A DNA stretch of 64,000 bases, from NCBI GenBank assembly GCA_963971305.1, contig OZ020304.1, positions 310,001 to 374,000 on the forward strand, written 5' to 3'. This DNA comes from Arcuatula senhousia. Lineage: Eukaryota > Mollusca > Bivalvia > Mytilida > Mytilidae. Shown here in pieces: positions 437 to 64,000 of the stretch. Under the pieces are notes generated by a model. It had not been told where the DNA came from. It made no database searches and saw only the letters and a program-made list of their open reading frames with translations. Positions within the stretch are counted from its first letter, which is position 1; each line of letters starts with the position of its first letter. The position numbers and the translations under genes were made by a program.

Positions 437-3400
437 GTAAGTATAAAACAAACAAGTATAGTAGTGTAGGGAAGCCTGGGTTGCCAAGTGGTCTAAGGCA
501 CTGGTTTAAATACCCCACTATTGACCACTAGACCAATCACCTCTCTAGTGGTGTTTGAGTCCTGTTTGTATTGAACAAAAAAGGGACTTCCCGAAATGTA
601 TGTGATTAGGTTTGTCAGTTACTTGCTAAAGGTCGGTGGTTTCCTCCAGGTACTCCAGTTTCCTTAACCAATAAAACTGATGGCCCTACATGGCCTAGGT
701 GCGTCATTAAAGGACATTTAATACCAACACACACACACACATAGTAGTGTAGGCTGACTTATATGTAAGACATAACAACCTCTTGGACTTGTCTGTTACT
801 AAGTGCTGTTCCATAAACAATTACATTGTCCAAGATCCCCCAACCAATATAAAAAATCATCACACACTCATAGCAAAATGCATTTTAACCCCCACCACCA
901 GCATAAAAATATAAAAATGGCATCCTAACTTTCCAATGTGGCTTTAATTAGGACAACCCTAACAGAAATTATCTTTTACTGAAACTTAAGCCTTTAATGC
1001 TAGAACATTCAAACTTTGAAAAAGAAAAAATACATCTAAAGAGAGTGAAGTTTAATATTGATTTTCTTATTTGAGAGAGGTTGGAAATCTACATGCACAG
1101 AAAGGAAAGTTTAACACTGATTTTGTTATTTTATTGAGCTTGGAGATCTAGTTCAAGGAATGAGATGTTAGATGTTGTTTTTTGTTTTTTTACAGAGCTC
1201 GTACCCCTACATGCTGTGTGAGGGACATTTAACATTGTTTTTGTTATTTTAGAGAGCTTGGAAATCTACGTGCTGCAACGGGGAAGTTTAACATTGTTTT
1301 TGTTATTTAAGAGAGCTTGGAAATCTACGTGCTGCACGAGGGAAGTTTAACATTGTTTTTGTTATTTTAGAGAGCTTGGAAATCTACGTGCTGCACGAGG
1401 GAAGTTTAACAGATCTCTAGAGATTAATCCGAACCATACCCTTACTCTACTACTCAGGGGAAATATGCATTACTACAGCGGGGATCCAGTCAGTGCCTTA
1501 GAAGATCACCAAGTAAGTGGCTACATTCCACTAGTGGGTGGCACAAATTACCAAGTAAGTGGCTACATTCCACCAGTGGGTGGCACAAATTACCAAGTAA
1601 GTGGCTACATTCCACCAGTGGGTGGCACAAATTACCAAGTACCAGTAAGTGGCTACATTCCACCAGTGGGTGGCACAAATTACCAAGTAAGTGGCTACAT
1701 TCCACCAGTGGGTGGCACAAATTACCAAGTAAGTGGCTACATTCCACCAGTGGGTGGCACAAATTACCAAGTAAGTGGCTACATTCCACCAGTGGGTGGC
1801 ACAAATTACCAAGTAAGTGGCTACATTCCACCAGTGGGTGGCACAAATTACCAAGTAAGTGGCTACATTCCACCAGTGGGTGGCACAAATTACCAAGTTA
1901 GTGGCTACATTCCACCAGTGGGTGGCACAAATTACCAAGTAAGTGGCTACATTCCACCAGTGGGTGGCACAAATTACCAAGTAAGTGGCTACATTCCACC
2001 AGTGGGTGGCACAAATTACCAAGTAAGTGGCTACATTCCACCAGTGGGTGGCACAAATTACCAAGTAAGTGGCTACATTCCACCAGTGGGTGGCACAAAT
2101 TACCAAGTAAGTGGCTACATTCCACCAGTGGGTGGCACAAATTACCAAGTACCAGTAAGTGGCTACATTCCACCAGTGGGTGGCACAAATTACCAAGTAA
2201 GTGGCTACATTCCACCAGTGGGTGGCACAAATTACCAAGTAAGTGGCTACATTCCACTAGTGGGTGACACTTATTACCAAGTAAATGGCGACATTCCACT
2301 AGTGGGTGACACTTATTACCAAGTAAGTGGCGACATTCCACTAGTGGGTGACACTTATTACCAAGTAAATGGCGACATAAACATTCCACTTGTCGGTGGC
2401 AAAATGAACTAAGTAAGTGGCTACATAAACAATCCACTTGTGGGTGGCACAAATTACCAAGTAAGTGGCTACATAAACATTCCACTAGTGGGTAGCACAT
2501 ATTAAGTAAGTGGCTAAATAAACTATTAACTATTGGGCAGTGAGTGTTTAAAATATTGTTGAATAACAGATGTTGATATCAGTGTTTTATTGATGCACAG
2601 CAATGTCGACCCAGATTCAATCGAGAATATTAAAAAAATACTAGCTGAATGATTCTCTTCTAAAACAGCATCATATCATTTAAAATAGTGCAATTATTAA
2701 GATTCTGGTGGTAATAACCTAAACCTGTTCATTTTTTCCTGGAAAAGCCTTCAACATGTAGGCGTGAATAACTATGTTTTACTGCAGGTGTTATAGAAAT
2801 GTCTGAGTTTTATATGCTGACTATACAGCCAGTACCAATTGACCGCTTATATTCACTTTTATGTCTGATTTCAGAAATGTCTTAGTATAGATGCAGACCA
2901 TATTCAGTGTCAATATATGGAGGCCTTATCATTTATAGCTTCAGGGAAATTTTATGAAGGATTAAAATCAACTACTAAAGTAAGTCACTATGAAGTAAAA
3001 AACAAGTCAAATTTCTAGTATGAAGAAATTCTCTATCTGTATTGTACAGTTTATCATGAATGTTTATGTTGTGAATGATATGCTTATAAGGCCCCCGATG
3101 GTAGGAATTAAGCATCTCTATCTTTATGTTTAATAAATTTCAGTAAAAAGTACAGCATGTACAAACAAGCTTTGAATTATTTTTATTCAAAGGGGAACAA
3201 CTCTAATGTATTAGTGATTTAGGGATACTTATCAAATTGATCATTATACTTTCAGGTTATGGTAAATAGCACACCACTGATGAAAGCTTCACCAGAATTT
3301 TTACGATCACATTATCTAAGAGGTATGATACTACTGTAGAAAAAATACCATCTGATCTGTTTACTTAAATACCCTTGTTTCAAAGAAGAGGGGTATATTG

Positions 3401-6400
3401 TTTTACCCTTATTTTACTTGGTAGTAAAGTATTAATTATACCCCAAAGCTTTGAAGAAGAAGGGGGTATACTGGTTAACCTCTCAATGTCCATCTGTAAC
3501 ATAACTTTCATAACAGTTTTCTCAGCAACTTCAAATCACAGTGAAATTTAGTATTGAGATTAGGTCTGTCAGATATCTACTTCTGTTAACTGTCTTAGTC
3601 AAATTTTGGGGATAGCAGGGTATACTGAGTGAGCAGAGGTTCACAGATTCCTTGTTGATTTTGTTGCAATTTTAAATTCATAGCAAAGGTCCACCATATG
3701 AAATATAAAATATTGAGATGTTGAGTAGGTGTATGCGACACAGCTCACATAACAATTTAGAATTACCATTATGGACAACCGCCAACAATCTTAGCTTCAA
3801 CGAGGCCAGTAGGCGCTGCTGGCCGCTCTGCAATGGCCTAAATAAAATGCATATAATTCAAATCCAGATTGATAGCATGATTGACAGCGTGATCTAATTA
3901 ATGTTGTTAGATAAGTCTGTCTTGTGGGTCTGGTTTTGGCATTTATGCTCTTTTTATAAAGACCACTAAGACCTTCCTGTTTATTAAATTCATTGTGGAA
4001 TGTAACACTATTTTATATAGATGTTGTTTCCTTGTTGTAGAATATGGGAGATATTTACATTCACACTTAGACCAGCCAGTAACATCACTTAACCCAGACG
4101 AAGATCTCAGTAATGAATTCAAAGATCATTGGGCTAAAGATTCAGAGTTTAAATTTAAAACAGCCTACAAAGAACAGCCTGGTCTACAACCAGAAATTCC
4201 GTAAGTTTAAGATTTAGGATGCTGCTACATTTAAGTCAGTTTTAGATTTAGGATACTGCTAGACTTACATGAAGGCTCAATTTTAAACTAACAATATATT
4301 TAAATTGATATCTTTAATGAAAAGATGGTAGGTTAAGGAGCAAAAAAAAGCTTGTTATCAAGATATATAGAGTTCAAAATTTGGCAGAAAAGCTAGGCTT
4401 TCTCTGACTTTTCTTAGGTTTTAATTCTACACGGTCATCTAAAGAAATATACATCTTAAACTTATACATTTTGCTTTCACTTTCATTCACTTTCATTTTG
4501 GTAATTTAATTTTGCATTATAAAAAAGGGTGAAACTTGAAAACTTAAAACAAAAAATTGAAAAAAAACATGACTTAATGATATGTTTTGTTATGAAAAGA
4601 AAAATGTACAAATGTATATTTATTATCAGAGACAGTGTATGAACTGACAATACATGTACGATGTCACAAATACAAAATGATGTGTACAAAGGGGAACAAC
4701 TCTACATTACATACATTTTGACATGCGTAATACAGTGGATTATTACAATCACTTATGAAATACTGTTTATTTAAACATTCTGTACATTTAAACATTTATA
4801 AAGTGTGATATTAATTCCCTTGTCTTACTTTAATTATGGTATTTTTTTCAGAGATGTAAATATTTTGACATATGAAGAATTAGACAGAAATAAAGCCACA
4901 TTATTATGTAAAGCAGATTCTGTGGGAAAAATGATGCAAGTCAATACAGATGGATACGCTCCTAATAAACGACACCAGTTAGCCATGGGGCTAGCTTCTA
5001 TACATATAGCTCAACTTTTAGAGGTGAGTTACCCCTAATAAGCCATGGGGCTAGCTTCTATACATATAGCTCAACTTTTAGAGGTGAGTTACCCCTAATA
5101 AGCCATGGGGCTAGCTTCTATACATATAGCTCAACTTTTAGAGGTAAGTCACCCCTAATAAGCCATGGGGCTAGCTTCTATATATATAGCTCAACTTTTA
5201 GAGGTTAGTTACCCCTAATAAGCCATGGGGCTGGCTTCTATATATATAGCTCAACTTTTAGAGGTGAGTTACCCCTAATAAGCCATGGGGCTAGCTTCTA
5301 TACATATAGCCCAACTTTTAGAGGTATGTCACCCCTAATAAGCCATGGGGCTAGCTTCTATACATAAAGCTCAACTGTTAGAGGTGAGTTACCCCTAATA
5401 AGCCATGGGGCTGGCTTCTATATATATAGCTCAACTTTTAGAGGTGAGTTACCCCTAATAAGCCATGGGGCTGGTTTCTATACATATAGCTCAACTTTTA
5501 GAGGTTAATCAAAATATATAAATTAAAAAACTTATAAACAGGAATTAGGATTTGAGATTGTATAATGTTATAGTGACAACACTGATGTTGTTTGTACATT
5601 TTAGGCTTCTGAGCAACAACTTGCCTTGTAATGGACCAATTGCTTTATGAAAAAAATAATACAATGTTATTTAGCACTTTGGGATGTTGCTTATTGCTGA
5701 TTTGGATTTGTTGACCATACTATATACTTCCTATTTTACAGTCAAAGATGTAGAGTGGGTGTTTTTATACCCTCCACAAACAGTTTGTGGATATATAGGA
5801 ATCACCCTGTCTGTCTGTCCATCTGTCCACATACCTTATAAGTGCAACTCCTTCTAAAACATACTATGGATTTTCATGAAACTTGATATAAAATCAGAAC
5901 ATCTTATGAAGATGTGCATGGGTAGTTTATATTTCTTTCAGATATCATTCAGGGTAGATAATTGGACGTAGACTTTTTAAAGTTCAGAGGGAGACCTCAT
6001 AAGCACAACTGTTACCACTAAATGGATTTTGATGAAACTTTACATGAACAAAATATATGATATAGAGATGTGCTTGAAGAAATTTGAAGAAATTGGGTAA
6101 CATTCAGGGAGGCAAAATAGAGTTAAACATATCTGTTTATAAGTTTGCTCACAGTACTCTTTGTTTTGTTTTTCAGTCCAAATGGAAAGGTTTACGACAA
6201 AACAAACAACAAATGGGTAAGGTTAGCCTGTCTTTTAATTCTAAAATCAATTGGGAAAATTTAAATCTTATTCATCAATGAAAATTTGACAAAATCTTTG
6301 TTTTGTAGAAACTTTTAAATATGCTAAACTGCTAAATAAAAAAATAAGTTCACCATCAAAAATTTTGAAAAAAGTGAGAATTCGCAAAAAAGGTGTATTT

Positions 6401-9400
6401 TTCCAATGTTTTGTTGTTATTTTTCTCAATTTTGAATTTAACCAAGCCCAAAGAGAAATTAATAAGAATAGCTGGCATAATTAAATTTAAAATTATACAT
6501 GTAATACATGTGCAAAAAGATGCTCAGTGATAGACACTCAATACACCTTGAATTGGCCATCCCTGGATTTCAGGAAGTGTAGGTCTAGAAATTCTTTGGG
6601 AACATTGATACTGCATGTATTTGGTATGCAACATCAGCATGAGATTTTTTTATCATGGGATTTGATTTCAGGTCCATTGCTCACCTTAATTTTGTTTCAT
6701 TATTATTCGTGATTTTAGCATGATTGTGAAATCAAGACTCGAGGCATTGCTAATCACATGATTTTGGTTTTGATTATAGAGAGGAGTTTATGGCGTGATG
6801 TTTTTAACATTGCTGTGGAATATCGTAGATTGGTGGATCCTGAACAGACCGTTTTATGGCTTGATTATATGACGCCACCTAGTGGAGAAGATTACAGGAC
6901 AGAATTTAATTTTATCAGGTACAAAGTTTACATTTACATGGAAGAAGTTACAAAATATACATTTACACGGAAGAAGTTACAAAGTATACATTTACACGGA
7001 AGAAGTTACAAAGTATACATTTACACGGAAGAAGTTACAAAGTATACATTTACACGGAAGAAGTTACAAAGTATACATTTACACGGAAGAAGTTCAAAGT
7101 ACACATTTAAAGGGAAGAAGTACAAAGTATACATTTACACGGAAGAAGTTACAAAGTATACATTTACACGGAAGAAGTTACAAAGTATACATTTACACGG
7201 AAGAAGTTCAAAGTACACATTTAAAGGGAAGAAGTACAAAGTATACATTTACACGGAAGAAGTTACAAAGTATACATTTACATGGAAGAAGTAACGACAT
7301 ATGGTAACAAACACATAAAATTATTATAGAAATTTACTTTTGTACAGGTAAACTTTCAAGAAGACAAAGCACAGTCATGCTTCACCTACTTGGGTGGCAA
7401 TGTCACCTACCAATGTTTATTTTTTGTTTTGTTTGTCTTTGAATTAGCTGTAAACAACATCACCATTTCAGTTCCGTCTGTTGTTAAATGTTTTTGACTG
7501 AATTTCAGGGAATGAAAAATACAGGTTATGAAATGATGAATGTGTATTGTATTTTATTTTGCAGGGGTTCTGTACATAATGTTAAACTGATGCAATATTT
7601 TGATCTGGTTTACAAACTGGCGAAGACCATGTTAGAACACTACTCAGGGTAAGTGATAAAATGAAGAATATATATAATAAATAACATCAGCTTGAAACAA
7701 AATCTAGACTCAGAAATCTTGTTAGAAGCAAAGAGGCACCAATTGGGCATTGGTGTGTCAAAAATTCGAAAGGGCAAAGACATAACCAGTAAACACGAAT
7801 GAGAACAGCACGAAGAAACACAAAACATAAAACAAACTAGAAAAATTGAGTGGCAGCTCACAAATAAATACCCACTGCTCCTCTAAAAACCAATCCAATA
7901 AAATTTTGAAATAGGAGGTGCACATGTCCATTATGTCACAAATGTTGTGTGAAAGTTTCATAACAATCCATCAAGGGGTTAAGAAAGAGTTGTCTGTGGA
8001 TATAAGATTGGAACCCCCCATTTAGTCATATGGTTAAACAGAATTTTTTTAAAATGGTGGAAAATGCAAAACACCAAATGAAATCCAACATATCAGTAAT
8101 AGCAAATATATCTAAGGACAAGCTACGCTGGCGGGAGTTAAACCTTAGGTTTTAGAATTTACATAAATTAGGATTATTGTATTAAACAAAGTGTACACAT
8201 GTGATATAATCCCATGTATAAGTACACCATATCTAAGAATAGTATAGAGCATACATCTTAAACATGGTGAATTGTTTTACTAACTGCACACAGTATTAAA
8301 GACAAACTCCTGTAACAAATATTTTATAAAAGAATATTGGAGTAAATGAACATGAGACCATAACACATATATAAACCCCAACTGCAATTGATTTTTGAGC
8401 TGTATGGACGCTTGAAGTCATCACTTGTCATGGAGCCTTGTTGAAAGTCTTCCTTTGGAGTCTATTTCAAGATGTAGATCCAACATTCGACATAATAAGC
8501 TCTGCATAAGATTTCCTTGTACCGGTAGTTATTTTTAACCTATCATAGATTTTTATACCCCACGCAATGAAGTTGCGAAGGGTATAATGTTTTTGACTGG
8601 TCCGTCCGTCCGTCCGTCAGTCTGTGATCAAAGTTTGTAATCGCAACTCCTCTTAAACTACTGAACAGAATTTAATGAAACTTGGTATGCAAGAAGAACA
8701 CCATATGTAGTTGTGCATATTACCGGGAATTTTTGATTCGCAAATTTTTGTGGGAGTTATGGCCCTTTGGACTTAGAAATTTGCAGAAAATCATGATTAC
8801 AGTTTGTAATCGCAACTCCTCTTAAACTACTGAACAGAATTTAACGAAAATTGGTATGCAAGAAGAACACCATATATAGTTGTGCATGCTACTGGGAATT
8901 TTTGATTCGCAAATTTTTGTTGGAGTTATGGCCCTTTGGACTTAGAAATTTGAAGAAAATCATGAGTACAGTTTGTAATCCCAACTCCTCTTCAACTACT
9001 GAACAGAATTTAACGAAACTTGGTATGCAAGAAGAACACCATATGTAGTTGTGCATATTACCGGGAATTTTTGATTCGCAAATTTTTGTTGGAGTTATGG
9101 CCCTTTGGACTTAGAAATTTGAAGAAAATCATGAGTACAGTTTGTAATCCCAACTCCTCTTCAACTACTGAACAGAATTTAACAAAACTTGGTATGCAAG
9201 AAGAACACCATATGTAGTTGTGCATATTACCGGGAATTTTTGATTCGCAAATTTTTGTGGGAGTTATGGACCTTTGGACTTAGAAATTTGCAGAAAATCA
9301 TGATTACAGTTTGTGATGGCAACTCCTCTAAAACTACTGACAGAATTTAACGAAACTAGGTATGCAAGAAGAACACCATATGAAGTTGTGCATATTACTG

Positions 9401-12400
9401 GGAATTTTTGATTTGCAAATTTTTGTGGGAGTAATGGCCCTTTGGACTTAGAAATTTGCAGAAAATCATGATAACAGTTTGTGATCGCAACTCCTCTAAA
9501 ACTACTGAACAGAATTTAACGAAACTTGGTATGCAAGAAGTACACCATATGTAGTTATGCATTTTACCTGGAATTTTTGACTCACAAATTTTTGTGGGAG
9601 TTATGGACCTTTGGACTTAGAAATTTGCAGAAAATCATGATTACAGTTTGTGATGGCAACTCCTCTTAAACTACTTAACAGAATTTAATGAAACTTAGTA
9701 TGCAAAAAGTACACGATATGTAGTTGTGCATATTACAAGGAATTTTTTATCCCCAAATTTTTGTCGGAGTTATGACCCTTTGAACTAAGAAATTTGACAT
9801 AACTTTGTTATGATATTCAAATACTTGCACATTTACTTTTACAATCATTCAATATTTTTGATTCCTGTAGCTTGATACTAATTCCTCAAGGATAACATTG
9901 ATAGTCCATTAGCGGCACGCGTGGGGTATGTGAGCGTGCTCACTAAGGTTCTTTCATTTATTTTGAAATGTTTACCGGTATGTGTTTTTTATAGTAATGC
10001 CATGTAATTAATCATTGATATAGCTTTAGTGTAATTTCTGATAAGCAAGCCAATTAAGATTTTTCTCAGGGCCTAAATTGGAACTTTCTGTAACAGATTT
10101 CTCAGCTACTATAATTAGTAAACTCTTGATATTTGGTAAGCAGCTTCAGGTAGGGTTCTCATATGGTGTGATGTGTTTTCAGGTTTGTTGTTTATCTGCT
10201 TACTGTTGAATGAGCCAACTTAAACAATTTTGTGCTCCGCAGGGGGACCTGGGAAGTCTGTTCTTGTTAAATTGCTGCTAATAAATGTAGGATGTGTGGC
10301 ACTATTCCACATTTCATCATTTCCAATGTTTTATTGTAGGAATGGAGCTGTATTTTATCCAGATTTACAGGATGACATTGAGAAATCTAAAACTGTTGAT
10401 GACTTGTTAACAGTGGCTAGGGTAGGTAACAATAGAATGGTCTATCAAAACATTGTCTCTTGTATAAAAATTAAGGATACATCATTAAAGAAGCAGGGAT
10501 GTGAAGTAAATATGCACAACGAAAACACAATGAATTATTTGTTGACAATCGACTATTTGGAGAACTGTTTTTTCTGTTAAAATTGCAGAAAAAATACAAT
10601 AGACATTGGGAGATTAAAGGCAGCTACAACAGGAATTGTTTATTGCTATAAGGCGCAGTTTCTCAGATTTGTGTTATGTCATTATTTATATAGTTAGTTT
10701 GTGTCACATTTAAAATGAATAATGAAGATCAGCTAATCTTTACAGGAATAGTTTTTATAACCCCTGCTTAATAATGGTGATACACTGATAGAGATGTCTG
10801 TTGTGTCTGTCTGTCTGTCCATATTTCTGGTACTCCTCTGGGTATCCATCCACTACTCCTGAACTTCTTAATGAATTTCATGAAACTTTTACAAATTATT
10901 TGTGGCATATTATAGACCTGCACCTGTTATTTTTTTTTATTTGATCAAATTTATTTTTGGAGATTCTCAAAGCAAAACATGGCAACAAGAGGGTACCCAT
11001 CTTTGATCCCCGACTCCTTCCTTCCTAATCCCCTCAGTGGATTTTCTTTAAATTTTCATACATATCAATCTTTATAACATAATGTAGATGTGCACCTCCT
11101 TTTTATGTCCCCCACCCCAATGTAATGGAGGTACCTACTAATGGTCCTCGTCCGTCCGTCCTTGTGTCTGTCACACAGTTATGGACACAACTTCTCTGAA
11201 ACCACCGAAAAGATTTTGCTGAAATTTTTTAGGATTGTTTTTATTGTATGTAGTTGATCGTATCCCAACCCCAATAGACAAACTTTACAGGAGTTATAGG
11301 ACTTTGTCTATTTTGTACATATTTTGTCATAGGACAACTTTGTGGGCAGAACTTCTTTGAGACTGCTGAATGGATTTTAATGGGATTTTGTAACGCACAA
11401 ACAACAGAAAAAAAGCAAGGTTTCATATTTATGTTTTTAATAAACAGAAACGACAGATAAACCAGCAAGGTTCCATATTTATGTTTTTATTAAACAGAAA
11501 CGACAGATAAACCAGCAAGGTTTCATATTTATGTTTTCATTAAACAGAAACGACAGATAAACCAGCATGGTTCCATATATTTGTTTTTATTAAACAGAAA
11601 CAACAGATAAACCAGCAAGGTTCCATATTTATGTTTTTATTAAACAGAAACGACAGATAAACGGTTTTATGTTTTTATTAAACAGAAACGACAGATAAAC
11701 GGTTTTATGTTTTTATTAAACAGAAACGACAGATAAACCAGCAAGGTTCCATATTTATGTTTTTATTAAACAGAAACGACAGATAAACGGTTTTATGTTT
11801 TTATTAAACAGAAACGACAGATAAACCAGCAAGGTTTCATATTTATGTTTTCATTAAACAGAAACGACAGATAAACCAGCATGGTTCCATATATTTGTTT
11901 TTATTAAACAGAAACGACAGATAAACCAGCAAGGTTCCATATTTATGTTTTTATTAAACAGAAACGACAGATAAACGGTTTTATGTTTTTATTAAACAGA
12001 AACGACAGATAAACCAGCAAGGTTTCATATTTATGTTTTCATTAAACAGAAACGACAGATAAAGCAGCATGGTTCCATATATTTGTTTTTATTAAACAGA
12101 AACGACAGATAAACCAGCAAGGTTCCATATTTATGTTTTTATTAAACAGAAACGACAGATAAACGGTTTTATGTTTTTATTAAACAGAAACGACAGATAA
12201 ACCAGTAAGGTTCCATATTTATGTTTTTATTAAACAGAAACGACAGATAAACCAGCAAGGTTTCATATTTATGTTTTCATTAAACAGAAACGACAGATAA
12301 ACCAGCATGGTTCCATATATTTGTTTTTATTAAACAGAAACGACAGATAAACCAGCAAGGTTCCATATTTATGTTTTTATTAAACAGAAACGACAGATAA

Positions 12401-15400
12401 ATGGTTTTATGTTTTTATTAAACAGAAACGACAGATAAACCAGCAAGGTTCCATATTTATGTTTTTATTAAACAGAAACGACAGATAAACGGTTTTATGT
12501 TTTTATTAAACAGAAACGACAGATAAACCAGCAAGGTTTCATATTTATGTTTTCATTAAACAGAAACGACAGATAAACCAGCATGGTTCCATATATTTGT
12601 TTTTATTAAACAGAAACGACAGATAAACCAGCAAGGTTCCATATTTATGTTTTTATTAAACAGAAACGACAGATAAACGGTGTTAAACAGAAACGACAGA
12701 TAAACCAGCAAGGTTTCATATTTATGTTTTCGTTAAACAGAAACGACAGATAAACCAGCATGGTTCCATATATTTGTTTTTATTAAACAGAAACGACAGA
12801 TAAACCAGCAAGGTTCCATATTTATGTTTTTATTAAACAGAAACGACAGATAAACGGTTTTATGTTTTTATTAAACAGAAACGACAGATAAACCAGCAAG
12901 GTTCCATATTTATGTTTTTATTAAACAGAAACGACAGATAAACCAGCAAGGTTTCATATTTATGTTTTCATTAAACAGAAACGACAGATAAACCAGCATG
13001 GTTCCATATATTTGTTTTTATTAAACAGAAACGACAGATAAACCAGCAAGGTTCCATATTTATGTTTTTATTAAACAGAAACGACAGATAAAGGGTTTTA
13101 TGTTTTTATTAAACAGAAACGACAGATAAACCAGCAAGGTTTCATATTTATGTTTTCGTTAAACAGAATCGACAGATAAACCAGCATGGTTCCATATATT
13201 TGTTTTTATTAAACAGAAACGACAGATAAACCAGCAAGGTTTCATATTTATGTTTTCATTAAACAGAAACGACAGATAAACCAGCATGGTTCCATATATT
13301 TGTTTTTATTAAACAGAAACGACAGATAAACCAGCAAGGTTCCATATTTATGTTTTTATTAAACAGAAACGACAGATAAACCAGCATGGTTCCATATATT
13401 TGTTTTTATTAAACAGAAACGACAGATAAACCAGCAAGGTTCCATATTTATGTTTTTATTAAACAGAAACGACAGATAAACGGTTTTATGTTTTTATTAA
13501 ACAGAAACGACAGATAAACGGTTTTATGTTTTTATTAAACAGAAACGACAGATAAACCAGCAAGGTTCCATATTTATGTTTTTATTAAACAGAAACGACA
13601 GATTAACCAGCAAGGTTTCATATTTATGTTTTCATTAAACAGAAACGACAGATAAACCAGCATGGTTCCATATATTTGTTTTTATTAAACAGAAACGACA
13701 GATAAACCAGCAAGGTTCCATATTTATGTTTTTATTAAACAGAAACGACAGATAAATGGTTTTATGTTTTTATTAAACAGAAACGACAGATAAACCAGCA
13801 AGGTTCCATATTTATGTTTTCATTAAACAGAAACGACAGATAAACCAGCAAGGTTTCATATTTATGTTTTCATTAAACAGAAACGACAGATAAACCAGCA
13901 TGGTTCCATATATTTGTTTTTATTAAACAGAAACAACAGATAAACCAGCAAGGTTCCATATTTATGTTTTTATTAAACAGAAACGACAGATAAACCAGCA
14001 TGGTTTCATATTTATGTTTTTATTAAACAGAAACGACAGATAAACCAGCAAGGTTTCATATTTATGTTTTCATTAAACAGAAACGACAGATAAACCAGCA
14101 TGGTTCCATATATTTGTTTTTATTAAACAGAAACGACAGATAAACCAGCAAGGTTCCATATTTATGTTTTTATTAAACAGAAACGACAGATAAACGGTTT
14201 TATGTTTTTATTAGACAGAAACGACAGATAAACCAGCAAGGTTTCATATTTATGTTTTTATTAAACAGAAACAACAGATAAACCAGCAAGGTTTCATATT
14301 TATGTTTTTATTAAACAGAAACGACAGATAAACCAGCAAGGTTTCATATTTATGTTTTTATTAAACAGAAACGACAGATAAACCAGCATGGTTCCATATT
14401 TATGTTTTTATTTAACAGAAACGACAGATAAACCAGCATGTTTCCATATTTATGTTTTTATTTAACAGAAACGACAGATAAACCAGCATGGTTCCATATT
14501 TATGTTTTTATTTAACAGAAACGACAGATAAACCAACATGGTTCCATATTTATGTTTTTATTAAACAGAAACGACAGATAAACCAGCAATGTTTCATATT
14601 TATGTTTTTATTAAACAGAAACGACAGATAAACCAGCATGGCTTCATGGTATCAACACAAGTTCCTAGTAGCCGTAAAGATGGAAACAACAACAACAGAC
14701 TAGACGGAGCTATGCTGATCCTCACAGATAATGTGTAAGTTCCTTTCCTACCCTTCCACATCAGTATCAATCAACATACTAGAGTAGGGCTCTATTGTCA
14801 TCAAATTGTCTGTCAATCTGTCCCCCTATCACACTCTAACTAAGATATAATGCTTAGAATGGGAGAGCCATTCTTAGTATTGTAGGCATATTATATAGTG
14901 ATCAGCAAATTTCATAGACTATATCTTTACCTATGCTTTTTCCAACTTGCATATCAATGCCTGATGCAAAATAAGACGTATTGTAGCCCTTAGTAGAGGG
15001 TGTTAGGGATACCCAAGCATGAACATTGGGAATTGCAAGTATATTCCAATTTACTGACAAGTGCCACATTAACTTCATCTATGGGAGAGAAGTTTAATGC
15101 ATGCTTTGACCTACTTTTGGCCAGATGTCATATAGTAGAAAAATCCAGGTTATGAAATGGCGAATGCTGGTGGGCACCCGGCAGGGAGGTGGGCAGCATG
15201 CAGGAGGTTGGGGAATTAAATTTCTTAACAGTTTTTTCAGCAACTGCTTATCACGTTGATATTAGGTATGCAGCATCAAGGTGGGGTCCCATTATGTGGG
15301 ATTCCATTTCAGGTCTGTTGCTCACCTACTTCCTGATTGAGGAAATTCAGCCATTTTTGACTTTAACAGATTTTTGTCTCGCCTGCGGAGCAGAGCGTGA

Positions 15401-16016
15401 CATAGGTGTTACTTTACCGGCTGTGGCGAGAGCAGAGCGTGACATAGGTGTTACTTTACCGGCTGTGGCGAGGGCGGCGTTAACTTTTTGGGAAAGTTTT
15501 ATGAGCACCTCCATATCTCAAGAACTATAGGTCCTGGGTTGATGACACTTGGTATGCATATGCCCCAGTAGTAGCTTAGCACAGTTGCATCCCCATCTTT
15601 TGACCTTGACCTTGATTTTCTGGTTGAGTGACTTTGACAAGTTTCAATACAAATGTACATATAATAGCAATGGAAAAGTTTTGCGAGCACCTCCATATCT
15701 CAAGAACTATGGGTCCTAGGTTAATGAAACTTGGTATGCATATGCCCCAGTAGTAGCTTAGCACAGTTGCATCGCCATCTTTTGACCTCGACCTTGATTT
15801 TCCGGTGGATTATTTTTATTGCATATAATAGCAATGTTTAAGTTCTATAAACATCTTTTGATCTCAGAAACTGAAAATCCATGTAAATTCAAAAGAAAGA
15901 ATAATTGTTTCTGATGGTCGGGCAGGCGAGACATACTTTAGTGTTAACTCTTGTTATCTTTTTATACGACCGCAAAAAATTTGCGGACGTATTATGGTAT
16001 GATGCTGTCGTTGTCG

Positions 16017-16048
<32 letters not shown>

Positions 16049-46950: not shown

Positions 46951-46959
46951 GTCAAATCC

Positions 46960-47720: not shown

Positions 47721-47779
47721 GTGAAATGTAAAATTGAAGTAAATGATATAGAGAATGCTAATTTCCATCAGTTCTTTAG

Positions 47780-49832: not shown

Positions 49833-49849
49833 TTAAGAATTTTTGAGAA

Positions 49850-54800: not shown

Positions 54801-57800
54801 CAAAGCACAAACTAACACACAGTAAAATCAAATCAATAGAAGATTCAACAAGAGAGAACCTGAGACATAGAACAAAAACAAATTAACGGGACGTAGAGAT
54901 ACTCACTTGAGAACACTCGAAGTTACTGAAAGCTAGCTAAGACGCATCTATCGACTGGTGTAAAAAAAAAATCAAGTATGTCGATTTTAATTCCAACACA
55001 ACACGTCAAACAATTAATGATTTGGTGATGTAAGCGACACACGTTACCGCTGTAATGCTAAAATTACATAAGTATAAAAAGGCAATTAACATTTTTAAAA
55101 AGTATAAAATCATCAATATCTTTACCAAAAAAGACTAAATTCAAAGATTTTACTAAAGTTTCCATTTCATAAACTTTATTCCATAAAGTTTTAAGCCAGT
55201 TGTTTTCATTCCCAAAGGATTTTTAAAAAAAAATATTTGCTTTATGAACAACATTACCGTAGAAATTGGGATGGGATATTCCGTTTACAATCAAAATTGG
55301 ACGTGTGCAGTTACATAAATTTTGTCCATAAGGTATAGATATTTATGATAAAACTTAGTAAACGACTTCAATAATGTGTGGTAACGATATCCTTGTTTTA
55401 GTAATTTTTTGTGTAATACACCGGTTTTTGGGCAAGCCTTATGGAATCTATAGAGAAGTGATGATTTTCGCGTTATTTTCAGTCTAGACGGAGTGTTCTT
55501 CCTGCATCCAGTCTGGAAAAAAATGTTTATTTTCTACATTACTTTTCTATATTGTTTTTATATTTGTTAACATGATATACACTTTTATAAATCTCCATTT
55601 TTATTGGCATTTTATATGCCAGCACAAGTTTTTTTTTTATTCCTTTGCATTTTACATGACGAACTATTTGGTAAAGGCGATAGAATATACATTATGTATT
55701 CATCTATTACTTGATTGGTTCGTATAAATATATCTCTTATTTGATTGCTCAATGCAAGGATTCTATCTTCCCATTTATAAATTCAGTACACAATACACAT
55801 CATTGAGATGAGTGCATTTAGATCGAAGGGTGTTTCAATCGATACCGTTTGTACACGATACCTGTCTTGTATTTGCAATTGCGTTTATTAACTTTGAGAG
55901 CATCTGCATGACGATCCTTTCTTCGCTCACCAAAATTTTCATTTTGCAAACGTTTTGAACAATATACTTTAACAGAGAATAAATCTATATTTTGCTTGCC
56001 TTTAAACGCTTTAGCGCTCTGATTATCATTAAAATCAGACACATATTGCAGATCCGAATATATCTTACCAACTGTAAAATATATACTTTGTAAAACGGAG
56101 CAAGTGGTACATCTCTCTCTAGAAAAAGAAAATGAACACTAGGAAATCAAAAGTCATCCCGTTTATCATATATTTTAGTGTGTAATTTTCCATTGATAAT
56201 ACCTAAATCTAGATCTAAAAATATGGACATCTATCACCGGTAAGGTTAGATTTAATCAAAGTTAATTTTTGTGATATATTTTCATAATAGAATTAGAAAA
56301 TGTGAGATTGTTTAGTGAAAAAATGTCGTCTAAATATCTGTATGTATTATTAAAAGTTTCAATGAGATGTTGTTTGTTGGGATCTTTTTGAAGTTTCGCC
56401 ATAAATTGGGATTCATAATGTAATGTATTGTTACTATATTGTTCAGTACAAATTCCTACCAGAACCATATACTGCCTTTGGAAACAGAACATGTGTGGAC
56501 ATACCTAGCTACAGCTCTAACAATTGTCATCTAAAATGTTGGAATGGTATAATTCAAAAACAGTGTGGTTGTACTGATTTCCTCTCAGGTAATTTATCAA
56601 TCGTCATTACGGTATTACCTAATGTCAAAAGAAAAAAAAATCATTTGCTCCCAAATCATTCAAATTAAAATTAAATTGCATTTTTTTCGAAAAAATTTGT
56701 CTATCAAAGACTAAAAAACTTTAGAGCTAAGAGGCAAAGTGAAAATAAAATATGAAGTGCACAATTCACATCCAAATAAAAACAAATATAAATTGGCAGA
56801 CGGAATTTTGTGGAGACAACAGAACTACATTTTACTTTAATAGAAAATTGTTCTAAGCATTTCTATTTTCATTCACTACAATCAACATAATGTCTAATAA
56901 TTTTCAGATAACGACACATTCTGCTCCTACCGTGATTACCTCGAATGTTCAAACCCAACTTTCTGTAAGTTGCATTAAATAAAACTCACATAACCCACAT
57001 AACCCACCCATGACACCGAACATTCTGTAAGGTTAGCCTAAACATATGACACATATCACCCCCGACACTCTGTAAGTGTAGCGTAATCAAACAAACTCTA
57101 CATTCTTTAAGCTGAGCTTTAGACTTGTCAAATCCAACTTTCTGTAAGACTTAGGTTAGTTTTAATGTATCGAACCAAAGTTTCTTGGTTCTGCTTAAAC
57201 CCCTCAAACTCACCAGGCTGTACATGTAGGTTAAAATTAAACTAACTAAATCAGCATTCTGCATGTTAAGCTTAAATTCATCAAACTTAACATTTTTTAA
57301 GGTATAAGCTTAATATCATGAACCCAACATTCCTTAAATAAAGGTAGTAACAAAAATACCGAACTTGAATGATCACTGAATCTCATTGTCCAGAGAAACT
57401 GACAAAAACTAATCAGTCATACCGCAGAATTGGTGGATCGCAATGGTCCTGACTTGGTACAGGCATTTCAAACGAAATGATGGGTTAAACCAGGTTTTAT
57501 GGCGCCAAACCTCCCTCTTCCATTGCGATCTTAGGATCCGGTAATGACCATAGAACACAACATAGTTGTGAGACACAATGGGGATAAATAAGCTTTAATT
57601 CAATCTCTAAAACTCAACATTCTATTAGATGTATGTTTGTTTTTAAAATATATTCATAGCAAACCTTTGAAAAGTGGCCTTTCATGTTAAGAAATCCTTT
57701 TTGTTACGGAACAGATTTGAATGTTAAAAGCCCAAAAGGGCAGAGACACTATTATTAAACACGAACGAAACCATAAGCCATTCGTACCATTTTGCTTCTG

Positions 57801-58163
57801 TAGTTCAAAACCTATGAAAGTTTAACTGTATAAATGTACTATTAAAGCCGCCTTTCTTACTTGATCTTATTTTTGCTATTGAAAATTCTTTATGTTGCAA
57901 ACCCATTATTTATATTTCGATCAACTTTAAATAATGAAATGTTTAGGGACTCTACTTATGACATACCACACAGAATCAATATATGTGTAACCTGTAATTT
58001 TTATAGGGACTCTACTTATGACATACCACACAGAATCATGTGACTGTCCTCTGGAATGTAACTATAGAAAGTACGGTTATACATTTTCCACGGGACAATT
58101 TCCCTCTGATTTCTTTGCTGAACAGTTCAGAAACATACTAGGATGGGATAAATCGTTTACCAA
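51697..58163 (+). CDS. DEG/ENaC (ASIC-like) sodium channel, 5' part in six exons
   Basis: The start ATG at 51697 opens a 60-codon exon with an intracellular helix and the gating HG motif (SQTTGFHGLNKI). Next come TM1 (VWLTCAVFLIYTVV), the post-TM1 motif FPAVTICN, a finger/thumb region with GLCLRFN, and Cys-rich segments (KCWNGIIQKQCGC, SCDCPLECNYRKYGYTFS). This order is diagnostic for the DEG/ENaC superfamily: trimeric, amiloride-type, plasma-membrane Na+ channels gated by protons, peptides or other ligands. The subtype cannot be called here. The palm end, TM2 and C-terminus lie beyond the window. Exon 6 is followed by a donor array running off the window. The exon 1-exon 2 phase does not match as read. 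Confidence 0.85.
51985..52170. repeat. Dispersed repeat with a ~53-bp duplication
   Basis: AGAGGCACAAATGGGGCATT and the following GTGTCAAAAGTCC are present twice in tandem, then ACACGAACGAGAAAACG. Related to 7690-7865 and 57705-57775. Confidence 0.55.
52442..52982 (+). CDS. DEG/ENaC exon 2: TM1 and proximal ectodomain
   Basis: After TTTCTAG, one base plus 180 codons: VCWASVWLTCAVFLIYTVVT (TM1), NDRLPFPAVTICNMSPRR, then ectodomain through DMGLCLRFNAEG and SHMLSSGVK. It ends GTTAAG|GTAATA in phase 0. A further stop-free reading past the donor gives a short tail ending at 53024. Confidence 0.85.
53477..53575 (+). CDS. DEG/ENaC exon 3
   Basis: Between TTGCAG and GTCGGT, IAVHDPQVDPIMVNEGIVLQ then PGTEGYIEISRNE. 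The VHDP...PG pattern is typical of the ASIC/DEG palm and beta-ball region. Phase 0 both sides. Confidence 0.8.
53665..53930 (+). mobile_element. Helentron-like repeat fragment
   Basis: CTTACGCCGCAACGCGGAGC start, GCGTCCGTCCGTCACAC tract, then a core with TTTTTCAGCAACTATTACTC and TTGATATTTGGTATGCAGC, related to 15200-15370. Confidence 0.45.
53931..55140. other. Channel-gene intron with a dispersed repeat
   Basis: 54700-54800 is an inverted copy of the repeat at 44870-44965 (GATTCCTGACTTACGACAGG, GTGGCGGGGTTAAAC). Otherwise AT-rich with nothing recognised. Confidence 0.45.
55150..56440 (-). pseudogene. Penelope-like reverse transcriptase remnant in channel-gene intron
   Basis: The minus strand near 56262-56420 reads YESQFMAKLQKDPNKQHLIE and FNNTYRYLDDIFSLNN, a clear RT YLDD box. 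Later frames give FLERDVPLAPFYKVYI and, beyond an interruption, LLKQGYRYHTLLKSFTKFYH. The motifs are in family order but in several phases with stops. It ends only a few bases before exon 4 at 56447. Confidence 0.65.
56447..56588 (+). CDS. DEG/ENaC exon 4: Cys-rich ectodomain
   Basis: After TTGTTCAG, YKFLPEPYTAFGNRTCVDIP, then SSNNCHLKCWNGIIQKQCGC and TDFLS, ending in phase 1 at TCAG|GTAATT. The LPEP and QCGC motifs are hallmarks of the family. Confidence 0.85.
56908..56964 (+). CDS. DEG/ENaC exon 5
   Basis: After TTTTCAG, DNDTFCSYRDYLECSNPTF, ending TTTCT|GTAAGT. Phases 1 in, 1 out. A decayed donor-like array follows. Confidence 0.75.
56945..57350 (+). repeat. Decayed tandem array resembling the exon-5 donor
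   Basis: After AACCCAACTTTCT|GTAAGTTG come diverged versions: CCGAACATTCTGTAAGGTTAG, CCGACACTCTGTAAGTGTAG, ACTCTACATTCTTTAAGCTG, TCCAACTTTCTGTAAGACTT, AATCAGCATTCTGCATGTTAA, ACTTAACATTTTTTAAGGTA and CCCAACATTCCTTAAATAAA. Spacing varies (about 35-60 bp). Read by eye, not aligned. Confidence 0.55.
57440..57610. repeat. Dispersed repeat, ATCGCAATGGTCCT family, second copy
   Basis: GGATCGCAATGGTCCTGACT through CTTCCATTGCGATCTTAGG; compare 43185-43400. Confidence 0.55.
57940..58038 (+). repeat. Duplicated acceptor of channel-gene exon 6 (60-bp unit, 2 copies)
   Basis: TTTAGGGACTCTACTTATGA at 57942 and TATAGGGACTCTACTTATGA at 58002, exactly 60 bp apart, each with an AG acceptor and about 32 exon bases. 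The second is used in the model. Confidence 0.85.
58007..58163 (+). CDS. DEG/ENaC exon 6
   Basis: Enters in phase 1 and reads WTLLMTYHTESCDCPLECNY, then RKYGYTFSTGQFPSDFFAEQ and FRNILGWDKSFTK, ending ACCAA|GTAAGT in phase 2. The CDCPLEC motif and the following FPS are conserved in ASIC/DEG channels. Both borders are duplicated. Confidence 0.85.
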
Positions 58164-61100
58164 GTAAGTAGTAATGAGACGGAAAACACGAGGTGCTGAA
58201 CAGTTCAGAAACATACTAGGATGGGATAAATCGTTTACCAAGTAAGTAGTGATGAGACGGAAAACACGAGGTGCTGAACAGTTCAGAAACATACTTGGAT
58301 GGGATAAGTCGTTCACCAAGTAAGTAGTAATGAGACAGAAAACACGAGGTACTGAACAGTTCAGAAACATACTAGGATGGGATAAGTCGTTTACCAAGTA
58401 GGTAGTAATGAGACGGAAAACACGAGGTGCTGAACAGTTCAGAAACATACTTGGATGGGATAAATCGTTTACCAAGTAAGTAGTAATGAGACGGAAAACA
58501 CGAGGTACTGAACAGTTCAAAACATACTTGGATGGGATAAGTCGTTCACTAAGTAAGTAGTAATGAGACGGAAAACACGAGGTACTGAACAGTTCAGAAA
58601 CATACTTGGATGGGATAAATCGTTTACCAAGTAAGTAGTGATGAGACGGAAAACACGAGGTACTGAACAGTTCAGAAACATACTTGGATGGGATAAATCG
58701 TTTACCAAGTAAGTAGTAATGAGACGGAAAACACGAGGTACTGAACAGTTCAGAAACATACTTGGATGGGATAAATCGTTCACCAAGTAAGTAGTGATGA
58801 GACTGAAAACACGAGGTACTGAACAGTTCAGAAACATACTTGGATGGGATAAATCGTTCACCAAGTAGGTAGTGATGAGACGGAAAACACGAGTGCTGAA
58901 CAGTTCAGAAACATACTTGGATGGGATAAATCGTTTACCAAGTAAGTAGTAATGAGACGGAAAACACGAGTGCTGAACAGTTCAGAAACATACTTGGATG
59001 GGATAAATCGTTCACCAAGTAGGTAGTAATGAGACGGAAAACACGAGTGCTGAACAGTTCAGAAACATACTTGGATGGGATAAATCGTTTACCAAGTAAG
59101 TAGTAATGAGACGGAAAACACGAGGTACTGAACAGTTCAGAAACATACTTGGATGGGATAAATCGTTCACCAAGTAAGTATTAATGAGACAGAAAACACG
59201 AGGTACTGAACAGTTCAGAAACATACTTGGATGGGATAAGTCGTTCACCAAGTAAGTAGAAATGAGACGGAAAACACGAGGTACTGAACAGTTCAGAAGC
59301 ATACTAGGATGGGATAAGTCGTTCACTAAGTAAGTAGTAATGAGACGGAAAACACGAGGTACTGAACAGTTCAGAAACATACTTGGATGGGATAAATCGT
59401 TCACCAAGTAAGTAGTAATGAGACGGAAAACACGAGGTACTGAACAGTTCAGAAACATACTTGGATGGGATAAGTCGTTCAACAAGTAAGTAGTAATGAG
59501 ACGGAAAACACGAGGTGCTGAACAGTTCAGAAACATACTTGGATGGGATAAATCGTTTACCAAGTAAGTAGTAATGAGACGGAAAACACGAGTGCTGAAC
59601 AGTTCAGAAACATACTTGGATGGGATAAATCGTTCACCAAGTAAGTAGTAATGAGACGGAAAACACGAGGTACTGAACAGTTCAGAAACATACTTGGATG
59701 GGGTAAATCGTTTACCAAGTAAGTAGTAATGAGACGGAAAACACGAGGTACTGAACAGTTCAGAAACATACTTGGATGGGATAAATCGTTCACCAAGTAG
59801 GTAGTAATGAGACGGAAAACACGAGGTACTGAACAGTTCAGAAACATACTTGGATGGGATAAATCGTTTACCAAGTAAGTAGTAATGAGACGGAAAACAC
59901 GAGGTGCTGAACAGTTCAAAAACATACTTGGATGGGATAAATCGTTCACCAAGTAAGTAGTAATGAGACAGAAAACACGAGGTACTGAACAGTTCAGAAA
60001 CATACTTGGATGGGATAAAACGTTCACCAAGTAAGTAGTAATGAGACGGAAAACACGAGGTGCTGAACAGTTCAAAAACATACTTGGATGGGATAAATCG
60101 TTCACCAAGTAAGTAGTAATGAGACGGAAAACACGAGGTACTGAACAGTTCAGAAACATACTTGGATGGGATAAATCGTTTACCAAGTAAGTAGTAATGA
60201 GACGGAAAACACGAGGTACTGAACAGTTCAGAAACATACTAGGATGGGATAAATCGTTTACCAAGTAAGTAGTGATGAGACGGAAAACACGAGGTACTGA
60301 ACAGTTCAGAAACATACTTGGATGGGATAAATCGTTTACCAAGTAAGTAGTAATGAGACGGAAAACACGAGGTGTTGAACAGTTCAAAAACATACTTGGA
60401 TGGGGTAAATCGTTCACCAAGTAAGTAGTAATGAGACGGAAAACACGAGGCACTGAACAGTTCAGAAACATACTTGGATGGGATAAGTCGTTTACCAAGT
60501 ACATGTAAGTAGTGATGAGACGGAAAACACGAGGTACTGAACAGTTCAGAAACATACTTGGATGGGATAAGTCGTTCACCAAGTAAGTAGTAATGAGACG
60601 GAAAACACGAGTGCTGAACAGTTCAGAAACATACTTGAATAGGATAAATCGTTTACCAAGTAGGTAGTAATGAGACGGAAAACACGAGGTACTGAACAGT
60701 TCAGAAACATACTTGGATGGGATAAATCGTTCACCAAGTAGGTAGTAATGAGACGGAAAACACGAGGTACTGAACAGTTCAGAAACATACTTGGATGGGA
60801 TAAGTCGTTCACCAAGTAAGTAGTAATGAGACGGAAAACACGAGGTACTGAACAGTTCAGAAACATACTTGGATGGGATAAATCGTTTACCAAGTAAGTA
60901 GTAAAGAGACGGAAAACACGAGGTACTGAACAGTTCAGAAACATACTTGGATGGGATAAGTCGTTCACCAAGTAAGTAGTAATGAGACGGAAAACACGAG
61001 TGCTGAACAGTTCAGAAACATACTTGGATGGGATAAATCGTTTACCAAGTAAGTATTAATGAGACAGAAAACACGAGGTACTGAACAGTTCAGAAACATA

Positions 61101-64000
61101 CTTGGATGGGATAAATCGTTCACCAAGTAAGTAGTAATGAGACGGAAAACACGAGGTACTGAACAGTTCAGAAACATACTTGGATGGGATAAATCGTTCA
61201 CCAAGTAAGTAGTAATGAGACGGAAAACACGAGGTGCTGAACAGTTCAGAAACATACTAGGATGGGATAAATCGTTCACCAAGTAGGTAGTAATGAGACG
61301 GAAAACACGAGGTACTGAACAGTTCAGAAACATACTTGGATGGGATAAATGGTTCACCAAGTAAGTAGTAATGAGACGGAAAACACGAGGTACTGAACAG
61401 TTCAGAAACATACTTGGATGGGATAAGTCGTTCACCAAGTAGGTAGTAATGAGACGGAAAACACGAGGTACTGAACAGTTCAGAAACATACTTGGATGGG
61501 ATAAGTCGTTCACCAAGTAGGTAGTAATGAGACGGAAAACACGAGGCGCTGAACAGTTCAGAAACATACTAGGATGGGATAAATCGTTCACCAAGTAAGT
61601 AGTAGTGAGACGGAAAACACGAGGCGCTGAACAGTTCAGAAACATACTTGGATGGGATAAATCGTTCACCAAGTAAGTAGTAGTGAGACGGAAAACACGA
61701 GGTACTGAACAGTTCAGAAACATACTTGGATGGGATAAATCGTTCACCAAGTAAGTAGTAGTGAGACGGAAAACACGAGGTACTGAACAGTTCAGAAACA
61801 TACTAGGATGGGATAAATCGTTCACCAAGTAAGTAGTAGTAAGACGGAAAACACGAGGCGCTGAACAGTTCAGAAACATACTTGGATGGGATAAATCGTT
61901 CACCAAGTAAGTAGTAGTGAGACGGAAAACACGAGGTACTGAACAGTTCAGAAACATACTTGGATGGGATAAGTCGTTTACCAAGTAAGTAGTGATGAGA
62001 CGGAAAACACGAGGTACTGAACAGTTCAGAAACATACTTGGATGGGATAAATCGTTCACCAAGTAGGTAGTAATGAGACGGAAAACACGAGGTACTGAAC
62101 AGTTCAGAAACATACTTGGATGGGATAAATCGTTCACCAAGTAAGTAGTGATGAGACGGAAAACACGAGGTACTGAACAGTTCAGAAACATACTTGGATG
62201 GGATAAATCGTTCACCAAGTAAGTAGTAATGAGACGGAAAACACGAGGCGTTGAACAGTTCAAAAACATACTTGGATGGGATAAGTCGTTCACCAAGTAG
62301 GTAGTAATGAGACGGAAAACACGAGGTACTGAACAGTTCAGAAACATACTTGGATGGGATAAATCGTTCACCAAGTAAGTAGTAATGAGACGGAAAACAC
62401 GAGGTACTGAACAGTTCAGAAACATACTAGGATGTGATAAGTCGTTCACCAAGTAGGTAGTAATGAGACGGAAAACACGAGGTACTGAACAGTTCAGAAA
62501 CATACTTGGATGGGATAAGTCGTTCACCAAGTAAGTAGTAATGAGACGGAAAACACGAGGTACTGAACAGTTCAGAAACATACTAGGATGGGATAAATCG
62601 TTCACCAAGTAAGTAGTAGTGAGACGGAAAACACGAGGTACTGAACAGTTCGGAAACATACTAGGATGGGATAAGTCGTTCACTAAGTAAGTAGTAATGA
62701 GACGGAAAACACGAGGTACTGAACAGTTCAGAAACATACTTGGATGGGATAAATCGTTCACCAAGTAGGTAGTAATGAGACGGAAAACACGAGGTACTGA
62801 ACAGTTCAGAAACATACTTGGATGGGATAAATCGTTCACCAAGTAAGTAGTAATGAGACGGAAAACACGAGGTACTGAACAGTTCAGAAACATACTAGGA
62901 TGGGATAAGTCGTTCACCAAGTAAGTAGTAGTGAGACGGAAAACACGAGGTGCTGAACAGTTCAGAAACATACTTGGATGGGATAAATCGTTCACCAAGT
63001 AGGTAGTAATGAGACGGAAAACACGAGGTACTGAACAGTTCAGAAACATACTAGGATGGGATAAGTCGTTCACTAAGTAAGTAGTAGTGAGACGGAAAAC
63101 ACGAGGTACTGAACAGTTCAGAAACATACTTGGATGGGATAAATCGTTTACCAAGTAAGTAGAAATGAGACAGAAAACACGAGGTGCTGAACAGTTCAGA
63201 AACATACTTGGATGGGATAAGTCGTTTACCAAGTAAGTAGTAATGAGACAGAAAACACGAGGTACTGAACAGTTCAGAAACATACTAGGATGGGATAAAA
63301 CGTTCACCAAGTAAGTAGTAATGAGACGGAAAACACGAGGTGCTGAACAGTTCAAAAACATACTTGGATGGGATAAATCGTTCACCAAGTAAGTAGTAAT
63401 GAGACGGAAAACACGAGGTACTGAACAGTTCAGAAACATACTTGGATGGGATAAATCGTTTACCAAGTAAGTAGTAGTGAGACGGAAAACACGAGGTACT
63501 GAACAGTTCAGAAACATACTTGGATGGGATAAATCGTTCACCAAGTAAGTAGTAATGAGACGGAAAACACGAGGTACTGAACAGTTCAGAAACATACTTG
63601 GATGGGATAAATCGTTTACCAAGTAAGTAGTAATGAGACAGAAAACACGAGGTACTGAACAGTTCAGAAACATACTTGGATGGGATAAATCGTTTACCAA
63701 GTAAGTAGTAATGAGACGGAAAACACGAGGTACTGAACAGTTCAGAAACATACTAGGATGGGATAAATCGTTTACCAAGTAAGTAGTGATGAGACGGAAA
63801 ACACGAGGTACTGAACAGTTCAGAAACATACTTGGATGGGATAAATCGTTTACCAAGTAAGTAGTAATGAGACGGAAAACACGAGGTGTTGAACAGTTCA
63901 AAAACATACTTGGATGGGGTAAATCGTTCACCAAGTAAGTAGTAATGAGACGGAAAACACGAGGCACTGAACAGTTCAGAAACATACTTGGATGGGATAA
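58117..64000 (+). repeat. Tandem array of the channel exon-6 splice donor (78-bp unit, about 75 copies, continues past window)
   Basis: The unit is 47 exon bases (GCTGAACAGTTCAGAAACAT through TTTACCAA) plus about 31 intron bases (GTAAGTAGTAATGAGACGG and AAAACACGAG). Nearly all copies keep CAAGTAAGTAG or CAAGTAGGTAG. Reading on in the exon frame stops at the first donor (AAG TAA). A few copies are 77 bp. The minus strand is open for about 1000 codons only because the unit is 26 codons without a stop. Confidence 0.97.

Follow-up and report, generated by a model that had tools for sequence, protein, structure and literature searches.

The exon-intron junctions of two neighbouring genes of the bivalve Arcuatula senhousia, TTC13 and a DEG/ENaC channel gene, carry tandem arrays whose repeat units run across the splice site. 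The window, a stretch of 64,000 bp (C2:310001-374000) in a 1.04-Gb assembly, takes in the last 16 exons of TTC13 and part of the DEG/ENaC gene; positions given without the prefix C2 are those of the window, and the neighbourhood analysed around it comprises 264 kb (C2:290001-554000). The TTC13 exons were modelled by reading the window, and the Mytilus trossulus TTC13 protein was then mapped by tblastn onto the neighbourhood, which places the gene on the plus strand at C2:293675-343293 with 24 exons and 46 splice junctions. Support from tblastn is weak for two of the 24 exons (E 0.02 and 0.01). The protein encoded in the window is 83% identical to that of M. trossulus over the 576 residues compared, and the 16 window exons, once joined, form a single open frame closed by a stop. 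Window exon 8 begins at 6780, a border set by the alignment with Mytilus TTC13 that leaves the arrays unaffected. The joined exons of the DEG/ENaC gene encode a protein with a single continuous Pfam ASC match (24-455), which aligns with solved acid-sensing channels across the exon joint. The exon borders on which a first-pass annotation of the window had relied are therefore supported by the open TTC13 frame, the tblastn exons and the unbroken ASC match.

Tandem arrays on the junctions of TTC13 and its neighbours

Arrays were called with Tandem Repeats Finder (TRF), and an array is termed spanning if its unit contains the exon end, the splice site and intron sequence. The junctions of TTC13 carry ten short-period arrays (29-75 bp; Table 1), of which nine are spanning, three at donors and six at acceptors, and one abuts a donor. 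The sequence holding the eleventh short-period array of the gene (42 bp x 2, 15388-15472) resembles a dispersed repeat on inspection by eye. Nine of eleven arrays spanning one of 46 junctions corresponds to P = 1.4e-9, and adding the five long-period arrays of the gene (147-169 bp) gives nine of 16 and P = 9.4e-6, where the null is uniform, independent placement, each array is collapsed to one unit and the spanning chance per array is 4-10%. The arrays and their placement at junctions are direct observations, and the excess at junctions that the first-pass annotation had proposed is strong in both TTC13 and the DEG/ENaC gene. Nine of the ten sites it had named were found again (both ends of TTC13 window exon 2, window exons 6, 11, 14 and 15 and the last exon, and the acceptor and donor of DEG/ENaC exon 6); at the tenth, the donor of DEG/ENaC exon 5, the decayed array can be seen by eye at about 56945-57150 and is not a TRF row. 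The 29-bp array at 6920-7292 and the two TTC13 arrays upstream of the window (31 bp and 62 bp) are additions to that list. Each exon with an array retains one intact copy in the gene models, as had also been claimed, and the exon-proximal copies yield an intact reading frame in TTC13 and in the joined DEG/ENaC exons.

The largest array belongs to the DEG/ENaC gene. It had been described as 78 bp x about 75 copies within the window, and its full extent is 333 copies over 25,964 bp (C2:368118-394081), with GT intact in 333/333; it occupies most of the intron from C2:368163 to 395330, the far exon border having been placed by eye. In a third gene of the neighbourhood, which encodes an O-methyltransferase (one exon at C2:435342-435498, another from 436423), a donor-spanning array of 61/70-bp units lies at C2:435504-436223. 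With the two exons joined, the PF01596 match covers 18-102 (64.5 bits) instead of 33-103 (61.3 bits). This gene was noticed through a coding-potential scan that its array possibly helped, and it is not an unbiased sample. A census of the 264 kb (TRF rows of period 20-130 bp with 4 or more copies and a score of at least 90, two arrays sharing one merged row) returned 18 multi-copy short arrays, of which ten span a verified coding junction and one abuts a donor.

A coding role for the repeats was considered and rejected: unit lengths of 31, 62, 59, 50, 29 and 67 bp are not divisible by 3, and stops occur in the 60-bp unit. The 42-bp TTC13 unit is open in frame.

Table 1. Exons and junction arrays of TTC13 and the DEG/ENaC gene, in window positions unless prefixed with C2
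Feature	Position	Strand	Basis or remark
TTC13 gene exon 2 donor array, 31 bp	C2:294748-294905	+	upstream of window; spans junction
TTC13 gene exon 7 acceptor array, 62 bp x 131 copies	C2:300277-308443	+	upstream of window; spans junction
TTC13 window exon 1 (gene exon 9)	354..436	+	without array; in-frame join and tblastn
59-bp array, ~6 copies, window exon 2 acceptor (first exon base 1371)	1040..1411	+	TRF and exon model
TTC13 window exon 2 (gene exon 10)	1371..1512	+	array on each end; exon model
42-bp array, 22-23 copies, window exon 2 donor (first intron base 1513)	1508..2474	+	TRF; GT intact 23/23
60-bp array, ~9 copies, window exon 6 (gene exon 14) donor (first intron base 5024)	4981..5505	+	TRF; GT intact 9/9
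29-bp array, 13 copies, beginning at intron base +2 (donor at 6919; after gene exon 16)	6920..7292	+	TRF; abuts only
50/38-bp array, ~68 copies, window exon 11 (gene exon 19) acceptor (first exon base 14619)	11399..14638	+	AG intact 68/68
Two copies of the 54-bp exon-14 unit, split off by a dispersed 167-bp repeat array	20291..20393	+	TRF
54-bp array, 11 copies, window exon 14 (gene exon 22) acceptor (first exon base 21480)	20923..21517	+	AG intact 11/11
Decayed ~67-bp array, window exon 15 (gene exon 23) acceptor	22251..22645	+	TRF row 22437-22645, preceded by more decayed copies from 22251 on
TTC13 window exon 15 (gene exon 23)	27591..27670	+	copy in use per exon model
75-bp array, 23 copies, last TTC13 exon (gene exon 24) acceptor (first exon base 33194)	31519..33241	+	AG intact 23/23
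TTC13 last exon, coding part including stop	33194..33296	+	exon model
Decayed donor-like repeats (...TTCTGTAAG...) behind DEG/ENaC exon ending 56964	56945..57150	+	by eye; not a TRF row
Acceptor duplication, 2 copies 60 bp apart, 35/36 identical, DEG/ENaC exon 58007-58162	57943..58038	+	not a TRF row
78-bp donor array of DEG/ENaC exon (first intron base 58163)	58118..64000	+	TRF; runs beyond window end

Splice-site words and exon samples across the genome

The junction excess was checked genome-wide with word pairs, in which a splice-site word is followed by the same word again; pairs within one array count repeatedly, large arrays weigh heavily, and the counts are lower bounds. The consensus donor word CAGGTAAGT occurs singly 8,725 times and forms 909 pairs at a spacing of 39-69 bp (10.4%), whereas the reversed word forms 56 pairs against 12,535 singles (0.45%). 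Destroying the GT gives CAGCTAAGT, with 9 pairs against 3,259 singles (0.28%), and its reverse has 22 against 3,000. By occurrence, the pair ratio of CAGGTAAGT is thus 23-fold that of its reverse and 38-fold that of the GT-destroyed word. A second donor word, AAGGTAAGT, is repeated after 30-60 bases in 751 matches and its reverse in 90. All 90 places of the reversed word fall into 29 loci, with three arrays of at least three pairs in 1,036 Mb, and the first 100 matches listed for AAGGTAAGT (161 Mb) fall into 13 loci, seven of them arrays with at least three pairs; by locus, the excess over the reversed word is about 2.9-fold for any pair among the matches listed. The excess of consensus donor words in tandem arrays is a direct observation and holds genome-wide, as had been anticipated for junctions at large. 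Two distinct donor units from the word test were inspected as letters, and each has one reading frame without stops as far as the donor. The donor arrays found by this test likely lie at real exons, as those of the individually modelled genes do.

Acceptors suggest a tendency in the same direction, with weaker controls. The acceptor word gives 240 pairs and its reverse 125, the word with AG changed to AC gives 39 and its reverse 77, all as raw pair counts that are not normalised by singles.

Exons of two other gene sets were sampled through Pfam hits, the CCT chaperonins by PF00118 hits alone (48 of 53 hits, loci L049-L080) and the DEG/ENaC family by PF00858 hits (32 of 74, loci L029-L048 and L081-L092). 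The 48 CCT exons, together with the gene stretches fetched alongside, contain three or four junction-spanning duplications: L054 (91 bp, at least 2.4 copies), L057 (119 bp, 2 copies), a weak L076, and L050 (44 bp, 2 copies), the last at a non-hit exon of a sampled CCT gene that was recognised by eye. In a set of 20 CCT exons from four chromosomes, the duplications of L054 and L057 lie across donors, and the repeat of L068 lies about 12 bases past one. Two repeats are near donors and not over them, L068 (27 bp x 6, at about +12) and L049 (65 bp x 2.4, at about +23). The DEG/ENaC paralogues L038 and L039 have in common an old duplication of 182-185 bp that carries the exon end into the intron. 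Short tandem duplications of about two copies each also occur off junctions (L052 at 1638, L064 at 429, L036 at 858, plus a few that are weaker), and L049-L051 contain long-period arrays (168-308 bp). A kinesin intron, picked for a long open frame in the hit table, has no array. The junction-array effect therefore extends beyond the window, and TTC13 stands far above the sampled CCT and DEG/ENaC genes.

Mirage-type arrays and their origin

The first-pass annotation knew of no named system of this kind, but there is a named precedent in the mirages of amphioxus. These have been described in a few genes (Adh3 and the globins BflGb6 and BflGb9), and their origin has been called unclear (PMC3087553, citing Canestro et al. 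2002). Amphioxus mirage units lie over the boundary at either exon end, the authentic boundary is retained, and many copies carry AG/GT; the units measure 10-72 bp in Adh3 and 150-160 bp in the globins (PMC3087553). The mussel arrays are of the mirage type, with units that span the exon-intron boundary in nine of the ten TTC13 junction arrays, at the DEG/ENaC donor and acceptor, at the O-methyltransferase donor and in L054. They differ from those of amphioxus in their bivalve host, in the presence of ten arrays in one gene (nine of them spanning), in reaching 333 copies (26 kb), and in the genome-wide donor-word excess measured here; the mussel arrays are known from the DNA of one assembly. 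What is new is thus the occurrence of mirages in a bivalve, on a larger scale than in amphioxus and with a genome-wide excess of donor words. In the open-licence literature that was searched, no report of junction-spanning arrays in bivalves was found.

More distant parallels are documented in other organisms. The minisatellite of human IFI6 (6-16) is likewise a tandem array over a donor, and two of its downstream units serve as donors to give three mRNAs (Turri et al. 1995, via PMC4526556, in the account given there), whereas the mussel arrays are seen at the DNA level. In human genes of segmental duplications, tandem repeats at exon-intron boundaries also alter or create introns, but these are recent paralogues in which the repeat is often kept in the exon, and the sections of PMC2812944 drawn on here report no junction excess. 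Across 31 plants and algae, tandem repeats are likewise non-random and become denser toward intron ends, although according to the portions of PMC3887541 cited here they are mostly short motifs near the junction and not across it.

We favour, with a probability of roughly 0.58, the explanation that the mussel arrays are neutral, mirage-type minisatellites: duplications across junctions, tolerated by splicing, would have seeded them, and arrays would start or grow more readily at junctions than elsewhere. At the outset, a tandem duplication some 30-90 bp long would by chance cover an exon-intron junction. Splicing would stay with the exon-proximal copy, as suggested by general features of splicing and by analogy with the RT-PCR (reverse transcription PCR) reported from amphioxus, so that the protein would be the same and the extra copies would turn into intron. 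As in any other minisatellite, unequal exchange or slippage might then grow, shrink and homogenise the array to 5-333 copies, a step to which copy divergence and block repeats point. Tolerance by splicing accounts for extra copies on the intron side. Because tolerance leaves the near-absence of large arrays deep in TTC13 introns unexplained, the simplest addition is that arrays originate or grow preferentially at junctions, and this preference would then reflect an easier start or expansion of duplications there and not any usefulness of the extra splice sites.

The behaviour of the copies is compatible with this explanation. Mean divergence of copies from their own consensus is 1-8%. The copies of the 62-bp array diverge from the exon copy, mostly with Q where the exon has R, and a block of this array seemingly recurs about 2.8 kb further on, as read in a single assembly. 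Many other positions of the unit are as constant as GT/AG, and in circular shifts of eight arrays, a comparison of limited power, conservation of the splice window does not exceed that of other windows in its unit (ranks 0.54, 0.24, 0.26, 0.24, 0.38, 0.93, 0.09 and 0.07). Within that power, we read the copy pattern as what neutral minisatellite turnover would leave.

Several observations weigh against our explanation. GT/AG is intact in 598/598 copies from seven junction arrays, which a role for selection predicts likewise. Pure neutrality leaves the rarity of deep-intron arrays in TTC13 and the large size of the junction arrays unaccounted for. Use of the exon-proximal splice site is a prediction from the intact frame of the gene models. 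The remaining seven of the 18 census arrays have no verified junction: three have no gene assignment (66 x 4 at C2:396846, 53 x 63 at C2:399180 and 32 x 26 at C2:536895-537697), three appear dispersed, with off-locus matches (57 x 5 at C2:449596, and 126 x 5 at C2:507908 and 509074), and one lies in a long open reading frame (ORF). The 32 sampled DEG/ENaC exons contain no minisatellite array, their TRF units being only 3-14 bp, from which it follows that the junction bias varies from gene to gene.

The bias could have its cause in splicing or transcription itself. Polymerase pausing, R-loops or the splicing machinery might break germ-line DNA at junctions and produce tandem duplications there, an account that the junction-linked excess with its point-mutant word control favours and for which R-loop damage following splicing defects offers a published parallel (PMC10450199, in the sections used here); since its case here is built from array placement and word counts, we consider it a serious candidate that is nevertheless unlikely. 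Such mutation is one possible cause of the junction bias in our preferred explanation. The stronger claim, that splice junctions act as genuine hot spots where tandem duplication is driven in the mussel germ line by a process linked to splicing or to transcription across them, we consider less likely than not; if it is true, junction minisatellites would arise continually genome-wide and feed intron length change and new introns.

The first-pass annotation had posed targeted duplication against duplications that are tolerated or useful. Tolerance by itself, with duplications arising everywhere and junctions merely permitting them, accounts for the intron-side copies and for the single copy kept on the exon, and the two-copy duplications off junctions in the exon samples agree with it. 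Deep introns should be no less tolerant of duplications than junctions, yet only one of eleven short-period TTC13 arrays is off-junction (the 42 x 2 array), and the rarity of such arrays makes survivorship alone an improbable account. Usefulness fares no better. Extra donors and acceptors might be retained as an aid to U1, U2AF or exon definition, and the unbroken series of intact dinucleotides and the occurrence of arrays at donors and acceptors alike are what such redundancy would lead one to expect; against it stand splice windows that, within the limited power noted above, are no more conserved than the rest of the unit, 333 copies that are difficult to justify, and array donors that are not clearly weaker than others (GTRAGT in 2/3 TTC13 window donors with arrays vs 7/12 without). 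We therefore think selected redundancy rather improbable. The idea of compensation for weak splice sites was also tried on the CCT genes and rejected, since the array donors there looked weak, yet many array-free donors do too. That the arrays are transposon-borne repeats or an assembly artefact is highly improbable, for although the region's introns hold many dispersed longer-period arrays and an N run lies at C2:396001-396100, each locus has its own unit, copies differ individually, and in the 264 kb searched eight of ten TTC13 units match nothing farther than 3 kb off. Counted by array, nine of eleven (ten TTC13, one DEG/ENaC) lack such an off-locus match there; the 67-bp TTC13 unit matches elsewhere only the exon copy that belongs to it, and the 31-bp unit matches one stretch of 44 bp weakly.

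Mirages in a mollusc make mutation bias and selection at splice junctions testable against each other with long reads and RNA. Junction arrays also supply the model of intron gain by tandem duplication with starting material, and they are a warning for gene annotation, where hundreds of perfect decoy splice sites may adjoin the real one.

Mobile elements and other observations

The junction array of TTC13 window exon 15 is interrupted by a DIRS-like element (22646-27590), with the decayed copies on one side of it and the exon copy in use on the other. A tyrosine recombinase match (PF00589) lies inside it at 26089-27138; it presumably also encodes a reverse transcriptase, and this and the DIRS label are our assumption, made by eye. 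Between TTC13 and the DEG/ENaC gene, on the minus strand at 36443-40416, lie a long ORF like that of a long interspersed nuclear element, with endonuclease and reverse transcriptase domains, and upstream of it an ORF that has a weak PHD-finger match.

Just past the last DEG/ENaC exon there is a run of 100 N (C2:396001-396100), an assembly gap or masked stretch. The 53-bp array behind that exon (about 63 copies, C2:399180-402532) carries an acceptor-like CTTTCAG, with AG intact in 63/64 copies; it was not counted as a junction array, as no coding exon could be assigned. The long ORF of the census (C2:464612-466996) contains Met-Gly-rich tandem repeats of 75 bp x 8 that are apparently coding.

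Acceptor-like word pairs also occur in inverted copies about 14.5 kb apart (C4:13477k/13492k, C5:38720k/38734k, C7:4701k/4716k, C7:19050k/19064k and C8:2691k/2705k), an arrangement suggestive of a large element flanked by inverted termini. C1 and C2 have 22 donor-pair loci among the matches listed, to C2:75.04 Mb, and 15 of these lie no more than 10 Mb from a chromosome end (P = 1.6e-5 under a uniform null, from which the density of single donors along the chromosome may differ). Human variable number tandem repeats have been linked with subtelomeres (PMC7608644, in the part cited here).

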